Of a DNA stretch of 64,000 bases, positions 40,592 to 42,954 are shown piece by piece. The position numbers and the translations under genes were made by a program. Source of the DNA: Candidatus Tumulicola sp. (GTDB lineage Bacteria > Vulcanimicrobiota > Vulcanimicrobiia > Vulcanimicrobiales > Vulcanimicrobiaceae); NCBI GenBank assembly GCA_036490475.1, contig DASXDT010000005.1, forward strand, positions 558,001 through 622,000. Reading direction: 5' to 3'. Within the stretch, counting starts at the first letter, position 1. Each line of letters opens with the position of its first letter. The notes beneath the pieces were generated by a model. It was given only the letters and a program-made list of their open reading frames with translations, did not search any database and had not been told where the DNA came from.

Positions 40592-40840
40592 ATGTTTGAA
40601 GACGACAACCTCGACGGTCGCGAGGGACCCGCCGACGGCGGCGCTTCCGGAACGCCGGGAGTTCACGACGGCGGCGCGGATGGCGGCGCAGACGGCGGAG
40701 CTGAAGGTCCAGCCGACGGCGGTGCCTCGGGCAAACCCGGCGTTCACGACGGCGGAGCAGATGGTGGCGCTGACGGCGGTGCCGACGGCGACGGCGGAGC
40801 CGATGGCGGCGCCGACGGGGGAGCGGACGGCGGAGCGTAA
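40592..40840 (+). CDS. Gly-Ala-Asp-Gly repeat peptide (candidate modified-peptide precursor)
   Basis: 82 residues. A ten-residue acidic leader (MFEDDNLDGR) is followed by two copies of a 27-residue unit (11-37 and 38-64, differing only Thr/Lys at one site), each EGPADGGASG-x-PGVHDGG plus GADGG steps, and an 18-residue GADGG tail (65-82). Composition is almost only Gly, Ala, Asp with two His and few others; no Cys, Ser clusters or hydrophobic core, so not a globular protein. Start ATG has GGAG eight bases before. It is followed directly by a JmjC oxygenase gene. I interpret it as a substrate peptide for Asp/His hydroxylation; no family is recognised. Confidence 0.75.
   Translation: MFEDDNLDGREGPADGGASGTPGVHDGGADGGADGGAEGPADGGASGKPGVHDGGADGGADGGADGDGGADGGADGGADGGA
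40622..40783 (+). repeat. Two tandem 81-base coding repeats
   Basis: Units 40622-40702 and 40703-40783 encode the same 27 residues with one substitution, but differ at many third codon positions (for example ggcggcgcttccgga versus ggcggtgcctcgggc). The protein repeat has therefore been kept by selection rather than by recent slippage. Confidence 0.8.
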
Positions 40841-40963
40841 CTCCCGATCGATCCGTTATCTCGAATCACAGGACTCGCAGTTGAGGAGTTCGCCGCGCGG
40901 CATTGGGGCGTCGCCCCGCTGCTTCGAACGGCGGCGCAACGTTCCGAAGACGACTTCGGAGAT
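40841..40963 (+). other. N-terminal coding stretch of the oxygenase lacking a start codon
   Basis: In the same frame as both the repeat peptide and the oxygenase, these 41 codons read LPIDPLSRITGLAVEEFAAR, then HWGVAPLLRTAAQRSEDDFG, then D; this looks like the conserved N-terminus of cupin-4/JmjC proteins. There is no ATG, GTG or TTG in this frame between the peptide's TAA (40838-40840) and TTG 40964. Either the oxygenase starts at a rare codon such as ATC 40847, or it is made by readthrough of TAA, or the N-terminus is lost. Confidence 0.6.
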
Positions 40964-42052
40964 TTGCTGTCGCTCGACGCGGTCGATGAGTTAGTCTCGC
41001 AGCGAGGGCTGCGAACGCCCTTTGTCCGCATGAGCCGGGACGGCGACTTGTTGTCGCCGTCCCGTTTCACACGCGGCGGTGGTGCCGGCGCGGAGATCGG
41101 CGACCAGGTCGCCGACGATAAAGTTCTCACGGAATTCGTTTCGGGCGCGACGCTCGTCTTGCAGGGCGTGCACCGCACGTGGGCTCCGGTCCGAACGTTT
41201 GCCGAAGGACTCTCGGCGCAGCTCGGTCATCCCGTGCAAGTCAACGCCTACGTAACGCCGCCCCAAAACACCGGCTTCGCGCCGCACTACGACGTGCACG
41301 ACGTTTTCGTTCTGCAGTTCGCAGGCCGCAAGCGATGGTTGGTGCACGAACCGGTGTTGCCGGCGCCGCTTCGAGATCAAACTTGGCAGCAACGCAAATC
41401 GGCCGTCGATGCACGCGCATCTGAAACACCGCTGATCGATTGCGTGCTCGAACGCGGCGACGTGCTCTATCTGCCGCGCGGCTACATTCACTCGGCGATG
41501 TCCCTCGACGATATCTCAGGCCATCTTACGATCGGCGTACACCCGGTTACCCGCCGGATGCTTGCGGACCAGATCCTGAGCGAACTTTCAGACGATGTCG
41601 CGTTGCGTCGCTCGTTACCGATCGGAGTCGACCTGTCGGATGAAGACGCGATCGAAGCCGATCTTGCGGCGACGGTCGCAGCGCTGCACGCTGCCATCGA
41701 CCGCTTCGATCGAACGGCGATCGCACGCGCGCTGGGGCGCTATCTCGCCGCGTCGACGCGTCCCGTTGCAATTCGGCCGTTCGAACAGATCGCCGCATCG
41801 GGGAAACTGACCCCGAGCGATCGCGTGCGCTTGCGTCCGGGTTTGCGTCTTACACTGCAGGTCGACAGCGAGCATGTCGCGGTGATATTGCCCGATCGAG
41901 AAATCCGATTCCCGGCGAGTCAGGCGCAAGCCGTACGCCTCGCCACTTCTGGGCGCGACATCTCTGCCGAAAAACTTCCCAGCACCGACTCGAACGACGG
42001 ATTGGCTCTCCTTTCGCAATTGTTGCGCGATGGCGTGGTCGTCCCGGCATGA
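40964..42052 (+). CDS. JmjC/cupin-4 type Fe(II)/2-oxoglutarate oxygenase
   Basis: 362 residues from TTG 40964 (longer if the upstream stretch is translated). The iron triad His108-x-Asp110...His176 is in APHYDVHDVFVLQ and LPRGYIHSAMS; RKRWLVHEP carries the usual basic residue of the oxoglutarate site region. This is the ROXA/MINA/NO66-like group, whose known members hydroxylate Arg or His side chains of proteins; related JmjC enzymes hydroxylate Asp. The C-terminal 150 residues form a helical/winged segment. Adjacent peptide rich in Asp and His is the obvious candidate substrate. Its stop overlaps the next gene (ATGA). Confidence 0.87.
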   Translation: MLSLDAVDELVSQRGLRTPFVRMSRDGDLLSPSRFTRGGGAGAEIGDQVADDKVLTEFVSGATLVLQGVHRTWAPVRTFAEGLSAQLGHPVQVNAYVTPPQNTGFAPHYDVHDVFVLQFAGRKRWLVHEPVLPAPLRDQTWQQRKSAVDARASETPLIDCVLERGDVLYLPRGYIHSAMSLDDISGHLTIGVHPVTRRMLADQILSELSDDVALRRSLPIGVDLSDEDAIEADLAATVAALHAAIDRFDRTAIARALGRYLAASTRPVAIRPFEQIAASGKLTPSDRVRLRPGLRLTLQVDSEHVAVILPDREIRFPASQAQAVRLATSGRDISAEKLPSTDSNDGLALLSQLLRDGVVVPA

Positions 42053-42954
42053 CCGCAAGTTCGGCCTTTCGCTGCTCGGTCGCAGCGGAGCTGCGCGGCG
42101 ATCCGATGATCGGCACGGCGCCGCCACAAACGCGCGTGCTGCTCGTTCATCAACCCGGCGCGTGGGGGCCGCGTGGTTTGACGGAGAGCCGTTGCGATCC
42201 CGAAATTTCGCAGCGTATCGATGCAGCCGCTGCCAATGCCGGAATGCGCCTCCAAGCGATTCGCCGCCCCGGAAAACACGAGCCGGGCGTTCCCGCCGGC
42301 GGCTACGAGGTCGGCATCGCCGAAACGAACATCGATACGCCGCGCATCACCTGGTGGCGCGTCGACCATTTGGCGCAAATCGCTCCGGAGCTCGAGGCCG
42401 GGTGGCCGCGCCTCACACCGGACGCAATCGATACTGCGCCACTGTACCTGGTGTGCGCCCATGGAAAGCACGATGCATGCTGCGCGCTGCGCGGTAGGCC
42501 GGTCGCACAAGCACTGCAACGTCTTCGTCCCGGTCGCGTTTGGGAAACGACGCATCTCGGCGGCGATCGTTTTGCCGCCAACGTATTGGTATTGCCGACG
42601 GGAGAGTTGTACGGACGCGTACCCGAGCAGCTCGCGCCCGAACTTACGCGGATCGCAGACGCCGGAGAAGTTCTACCAGCGCTGATGCGAGGACGAATCG
42701 GACTCACACCGGTCGCGCAAGCGGCGCTCGTTTTCGCCTATCAACAGCTCGGCATCGCGCAACGGGACGCGCTGAGCGTGACATCCGTGCACCGGATCGA
42801 CGACGATCACGCCCAAGCCAACGTCGTCACGCCGCTGGGTGACATGACGGTGACCGTAGAAACCGCGGTTCGTGCCGGCGCGCAGCTCACGTGTCGCGGG
42901 CCGGAAAATGTTCGCGCGCGCGAGTATCGCGGAGTAACGATCGCCAGAGCCTAG
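42049..42954 (+). CDS. Sucrase/ferredoxin-like family protein
   Basis: 301 residues. The C-terminal domain has a thioredoxin-like iron-sulfur pattern: LVCAHGKHDACCALRGRPV (Cys136, His138, Cys144, Cys145) and WETTHLGGDRFAANVLVLPTGELYGRV with His169. This is the Suc_Fer-like family (PF06999), related to [2Fe-2S] thioredoxin-fold ferredoxins. ATG overlaps the oxygenase stop, so both are made together; it may hand electrons to keep the iron enzyme reduced. That role is inference from gene order. Confidence 0.85.
   Translation: MTASSAFRCSVAAELRGDPMIGTAPPQTRVLLVHQPGAWGPRGLTESRCDPEISQRIDAAAANAGMRLQAIRRPGKHEPGVPAGGYEVGIAETNIDTPRITWWRVDHLAQIAPELEAGWPRLTPDAIDTAPLYLVCAHGKHDACCALRGRPVAQALQRLRPGRVWETTHLGGDRFAANVLVLPTGELYGRVPEQLAPELTRIADAGEVLPALMRGRIGLTPVAQAALVFAYQQLGIAQRDALSVTSVHRIDDDHAQANVVTPLGDMTVTVETAVRAGAQLTCRGPENVRAREYRGVTIARA

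Follow-up and report, generated by a model that had tools for sequence, protein, structure and literature searches.

The oxygenases NO66 (RIOX1) and MINA53 (RIOX2) are reported to be highly selective for His; in both, a network of Tyr and Ser (Tyr328 and Ser421 in NO66) surrounds the substrate His; the side chain of an Asn put in place of that His reached no further than the Tyr (PMC9994133). His, Arg, Asn and Asp are all oxidised by related JmjC enzymes, one of which, FIH, accepts Asn, Asp and His residues and is also capable of desaturation (PMC9994133). JmjC/cupin hydroxylases also occur in RiPP clusters, as BpmG (biphenomycin) and PbsQ (pbs cluster), where they serve as tailoring enzymes (PbsQ acting on Orn) within larger clusters that also encode an MNIO, a B12-rSAM enzyme and a protease (PMC12257519). 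C-3 hydroxylation of Asp in RiPPs is known from enzymes of other folds, the MNIO PesHI in nitrilobacillins (PMC13060819) and alphaKG-HExxH enzymes; these belong to other enzyme families, act on one Asp per precursor and are accompanied by further steps, for example by a nitrile synthetase.

We analysed a 64,000-nucleotide stretch of DNA (the window, by which we mean the whole stretch) that carries a small repeat peptide gene directly followed by a JmjC oxygenase gene. A sequence-only reading of this DNA had described a peptide of two 27-residue units plus a tail, then the oxygenase and, through an ATGA overlap, a Suc_Fer protein. Open reading frames and domain matches confirm that layout:

40592..40840, + strand: GPADGGA/DGGA-repeat peptide gene (open reading frame and translation; orthologues in the relatives G093 and G015 and in Actinobacteria)
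40622..40702, + strand: repeat unit 1, EGPADGGASGTPGVHDGGADGGADGGA (period 81 nt; codon comparison)
40703..40783, + strand: repeat unit 2, EGPADGGASGKPGVHDGGADGGADGGA (differs from unit 1 by 16 synonymous changes and 1 non-synonymous change)
40784..40837, + strand: tail, DGDGGADGGADGGADGGA, with DGGA tetrads (repeat analysis and translation)
40850..42052, + strand: JmjC_2/Cupin_4 Fe(II)/2OG oxygenase of ROX (NO66-like) architecture (PF08007; alignment A5; predicted model; fold match to NO66)
42049..42954, + strand: Suc_Fer-like (thioredoxin-like ferredoxin) protein, an optional third member (PF06999; motif counts in 38 homologues)

None of the ROX, biphenomycin-like JmjC/cupin or MNIO Asp-hydroxylation systems has this make-up. 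NO66, MINA53 and YcfD share the whole-chain fold and the Fe and 2OG residues of the enzyme described here, which differs in having its own repeat peptide gene as a partner, in its patchy distribution and in an invariant Gly at the position of NO66 Ser421. With BpmG and PbsQ it has in common a JmjC/cupin enzyme acting, or predicted to act, on a ribosomal precursor peptide; here, however, no enzyme other than the JmjC protein is conserved, and DGGA tandem repeats make up the peptide. The common ground with PesHI and the alphaKG-HExxH enzymes would be 3-hydroxyaspartate in a ribosomal peptide. FIH is likewise a JmjC enzyme and is present among the fold matches, but only its JmjC core aligns (Z about 13) and its substrates are eukaryotic protein domains. 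No model in Pfam or NCBIfam covers the DGGA-repeat peptide, and we found no description of it in open-access papers, although a paywalled description is possible; searches of that literature for JmjC enzymes with repeat RiPPs gave nothing relevant besides biphenomycin. The earlier statement that no described family with the trio of peptide, JmjC and Suc_Fer was known stands for Pfam, NCBIfam and the open papers searched, and the peptide with its own JmjC oxygenase very probably constitutes an undescribed, putative peptide-modification system.

The peptide gene begins with ATG behind an SD-like GGAG and encodes 82 residues: a short, acidic N-terminus (MFEDDNLDGR), the two 27-residue units and then a tail of 18 residues. 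This low-complexity sequence consists mainly of four or five residue types, and the gene contains a tandem DNA repeat with a period of 81 nt. Between the units (residues 11–37 and 38–64) we count 16 synonymous changes and a single non-synonymous change (T/K) over S = 22.7 and N = 58.3 sites (dN 0.017, dS >2); by our own binomial estimate, a skew of 16:1 has a probability near 2e-8 at equal rates. This points to strong selection on the amino-acid sequence of the peptide and bears out what the sequence-only reading had concluded from the same repeat.

The JmjC gene (PF08007, E=5.7e-28) is read in the same frame as the peptide, and its frame opens directly past the peptide TAA, at 40841. In the window this frame contains no ATG, GTG or TTG ahead of TTG 40964. 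F14, W19 and D38 (alignment A5, residue 1 at 40850), conserved in all 32 homologues, fall before or across that codon, which is unlikely to be the start because it would remove the invariant F14 and W19. In the relatives G093 and G015 of the same family, peptide and JmjC gene are read in different frames, and ATG or GTG codons in frame with the JmjC gene overlap the 3' end of the peptide gene. Since the window, unlike these relatives, offers no standard start before the conserved residues, its JmjC gene may use a non-standard start, depend on coupling or read-through, or carry a small change or a sequence error at the junction. Read-through to a peptide-JmjC fusion was rejected as the general form of the system, because relatives have different frames or separated genes. 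The anomaly leaves the peptide and the catalytic part unaffected.

An AlphaFold2 model of the JmjC protein, computed with 32 homologues, has a pLDDT of 91 and matches NO66 over its full length (Z 30.4; 378 of 400 residues at 23% identity), followed by MINA53 (Z 28.8), YxbC (20) and YcfD (19.7); Foldseek agrees, and NO66 is the nearest relative by sequence too (E 1e-34). The predicted model and its whole-chain matches display the JmjC, dimerisation and winged-helix domains by which the ROX group is recognised. H146, D148, H214 and K161 are invariant among the 32 homologues and aligned with NO66, from whose residue roles we assign the first three as the metal triad and Lys161 as the 2OG-binding residue. 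NO66 Tyr328 is kept as Y134, and the position of Ser421 is an invariant Gly, G229. Loss of this Ser from the His network of NO66 argues for a substrate residue other than His; in the alignment, Gly for Ser421 with the Tyr retained would fit a short acidic substrate residue. Because NO66 and MINA53 are so selective for His, a ROX enzyme acting on Asp would be new. In a fold of the read-through peptide-JmjC chain, the peptide part had a pLDDT of about 30, was disordered and did not dock.

With the JmjC alignment as query, a scan of about 85,000 species of bacteria and archaea gave 80 loci, nearly all in Actinomycetota, and at 79 of them a GPADGGA-repeat peptide ends just upstream of the JmjC gene. 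The sole exception, Dactylosporangium vinaceum, carries an intact peptide (L151, 2731-3009) on the same chromosome 2.4 Mb from the JmjC gene, so that the pairing survives without linkage. A second sample comprised 395 actinobacterial genomes (Micromonospora class). Every multi-copy EGPADGGA array examined there has the JmjC directly downstream, and isolated single EGPADGGA matches are mostly without it. A close JmjC gene is present in 63 of the 395 genomes, in 58 cases with a DGGA peptide and in five with another acidic peptide. Two JmjC proteins inside the DGGA clade (L195, L196) stand beside an acidic peptide that lacks DGGA repeats and ends in DDPEL(S/A)GADLxEDQxxGxGPT(V/I)EPGA. Single matches to a GADGG pattern in two further genomes (G043 and G019) were set aside as chance, having no JmjC alongside. 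The earlier reading had considered that the peptide might be absent or frame-broken beside orthologous oxygenases; its presence at 79 of 80 loci and beside 58 of 63 close JmjC genes answers this in the negative. As in RiPP systems, then, a short precursor gene lies beside a dedicated enzyme and the two are conserved as a pair.

Among 99 genomes of the window's family, the peptide array and orthologues of the JmjC and Suc_Fer proteins occur together in exactly three, from three genera; the relatives' JmjC orthologues are 67-70% identical and the Suc_Fer orthologue 69%. A relative of the same genus as the window has neither the peptide nor either orthologue, and no DGGA peptide accompanies the distant JmjC genes of the family (about 30% identity). 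One contig that groups with the window's family, CAJCIN010000009.1 (L035), is titled Rhodospirillales bacterium, a title that looks wrong. Other carriers include Micromonospora, Actinoplanes, Nocardioides, Geodermatophilaceae and Kribbella, to which the lineage of the window is unrelated. The JmjC tree unites the window with G093 and G015 in a single clade (SH-aLRT 99) and joins this clade, within Actinomycetota, to Nocardioides together with a Micrococcales MAG (100), whereas the RpoB tree places the window lineage far outside that phylum (100). The unit thus reached the window lineage by transfer from Actinobacteria.

The Suc_Fer protein (PF06999, E=1.3e-17, 65 bits against a cut-off of 34.9) is joined to the JmjC gene by overlap of its ATG at 42049 with the JmjC TGA at 42050-42052. 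A homologue adjoins 14 of 24 compared loci and is missing beside the system in Micromonosporaceae; the earlier trio is therefore one version of the system, and the conserved unit is the peptide-JmjC pair. In the Aim32 family the [2Fe-2S] motif is CX8CXnHX3H (PMC8482512). The Suc_Fer protein resembles the Apd1/Aim32 thioredoxin-like ferredoxins in its PF06999 match and in the CX8C part of this motif (C136 and C145), constant in 38 homologues, but where Apd1 and Aim32 have HX3H it and its homologues have HX3D (36 of 38) or HX3C (2 of 38), and so lack the bis-His form. Residues 136, 145, 169 and 173 could form a Cys2-His-Asp [2Fe-2S] site, and a search by sequence returned no solved relatives. 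A role as redox helper, not as a core part, is plausible. Upstream, a SAM methyltransferase gene is divergently transcribed, as had been read from the sequence; it is not conserved beside the 24 compared loci, where neighbours vary, and was rejected as a member of the system. Downstream of Suc_Fer lies a convergent gene that we take to be of the VOC family. A separate conserved leader and genes for a protease or for export are common, if not universal, in RiPP systems; among the neighbours of the 24 loci we found no conserved protease, transporter or recognition domain.

Across 100 distinct peptides, each with 4 to 18 tetrads, the 1012 core Asp residues are followed by Gly at +1 (88%), Gly at +2 (85%) and Ala at +3 (93%), and the commonest Asp-Asp spacing is four. 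Cys is almost absent, and His is missing from 17 of the 100 peptides. In the long unit, the position preceding DGGADG is H, Q, R or another residue; more generally, the His is often replaced by Q, R, K, S or T or is absent, and the Asp is constant. The constant feature of the peptides is thus the Asp in its D-G-G-A register, not the His-Asp pair that the sequence-only reading had put forward as a possible modification site, which these replacements make unlikely. That His is dispensable points to Asp as the likely site. The N-terminal part of the peptide is short and not conserved between subgroups, so the peptide appears to have no clear leader.

We infer that peptide and oxygenase form a RiPP-like pair in which the JmjC enzyme acts on the peptide as a dedicated substrate, oxidising its Asp residues, with a redox partner as an optional addition; we consider this reading probable. 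The small repeat peptide would be made ribosomally, and the adjoining enzyme would bind it as a flexible chain and oxidise its numerous tetrad Asp residues, which stand in the context (A/H/Q)-D-G-G-A; hydroxylation at C-3 (beta) with Fe(II), O2 and 2-oxoglutarate is the likeliest reaction. Where Suc_Fer is present, our best guess is that its electrons maintain the iron in the ferrous state, or else that it assists in a subsequent redox reaction. This would yield a poly-(3-hydroxyaspartyl) peptide in the cytosol, and we speculate that the peptide may serve as a metal (iron) chelator or buffer. Against this reading we count the reported His selectivity of NO66 and MINA53, the missing clear leader, the absence of a conserved protease, transporter or recognition domain at the compared loci, the failure of the peptide to dock in the read-through fold, the Micromonosporaceae loci without Suc_Fer and the two clade members without DGGA.

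The nearest sister clades of the JmjC protein (28-39% identity) also have short Asp-rich open reading frames directly upstream. These encode repeat peptides of the DADGTDGG, TDADADS and GGDADQGDSDSTQ types (L198, L199, L200, L207, L209, L210), and the DADGTDGG-type groups hold together with the DGGA group in the JmjC tree (97). Upstream of more distant ROX-like JmjC genes, six genomes (L213, L216, L217, L218, L219, L223) encode a conserved 35-residue peptide, for example MDPIEVEVEDLGEVTSRDVTAGGDSDGTDSSSDFI, that ends in SDGTDSSSDFI; in several of them it is preceded by a gene that we read as prolyl-oligopeptidase-like. Further ROX-like JmjC genes (L220, L221, L224; also L004, L005, L007, L010) follow short open reading frames with GRSDGND tails or, in the window's phylum, of the MTYLAPEIV...DDGG and MHDHISAP...NTGDE types. 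Pfam and NCBIfam hold no models for the Asp peptides of the sister clades, and the feature common to their classes is Asp.

It is unlikely, though worth weighing, that the peptide is the JmjC substrate but is altered at another atom or by other chemistry: oxidation of Ala, Gly or His, desaturation, or oxidation-triggered formation of aspartimide or isoaspartate or cleavage at Asp-Gly. Asp-Gly sequences are chemically prone to succinimide formation, and the +3 Ala varies no more than the Gly residues do. The range of residues oxidised by related JmjC enzymes and the desaturation by FIH (PMC9994133) would also accommodate such an outcome. His, however, is a poor candidate given its frequent replacement or loss, and Asp is the residue common to the differing classes of peptide in the sister clades.

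We regard as distinctly unlikely a role of the peptide as partner instead of substrate. It would then be a flexible, acidic protein, binding metal or acting as a scaffold, and would either bring iron to the JmjC enzyme or the Suc_Fer cluster or exert control over these. An Asp-rich, disordered repeat would suit such a role, JmjC and Suc_Fer are both iron proteins by family, no processing genes were found nearby at the 24 loci, and Dactylosporangium keeps its peptide unlinked. A strict D-G-G-A register in which Ala takes the +3 position would, however, be superfluous for iron delivery, which also leaves unexplained the differently built Asp peptides beside other JmjC clades.

Still more doubtful is that the JmjC protein is an ordinary ROX acting on a ribosomal protein, with the small open reading frame as decoy, inhibitor or translational regulator. 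The full ROX architecture with its match to NO66 speaks for this, as does the apparent coupling of JmjC translation to the end of the peptide. A ribosomal housekeeping target is nevertheless poorly served by so patchy a distribution (three of 99 genomes in the family, 63 of 395 in the class), the peptide is conserved in its amino acids and not merely in being translated, it persists where unlinked to the JmjC gene, and the Ser421 of NO66 is replaced by Gly. That the repeat is a chance or non-coding GC-rich sequence, as its low complexity could suggest, is almost certainly wrong, being already contradicted by the synonymous excess between the units and by conservation across phyla with the same enzyme.

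If the peptide is the substrate, as we think probable, the pair represents a simple and widespread peptide-modifying system of one oxygenase and one repeat peptide that has been passed to another phylum and is absent from the family libraries and open papers searched. ROX-type JmjC enzymes would then gain a dedicated non-ribosomal substrate, with the choice of residue shifting from His to Asp. More tentatively, and with less confidence than doubt, bacterial ROX-type JmjC enzymes as a group may lie at the origin of a family of peptide-aspartyl oxygenases in which every member has an Asp-rich ribosomal peptide of its own (DGGA, DADGTDGG, SDGTDSSSDFI or GRSDGND), whose products would be metal-binding poly-3-hydroxyaspartyl peptides and with which NO66 and MINA53 would share ancestry. 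A peptide bearing 3-hydroxyaspartate at many positions would represent a ribosomal metal-binding polymer of a new kind.
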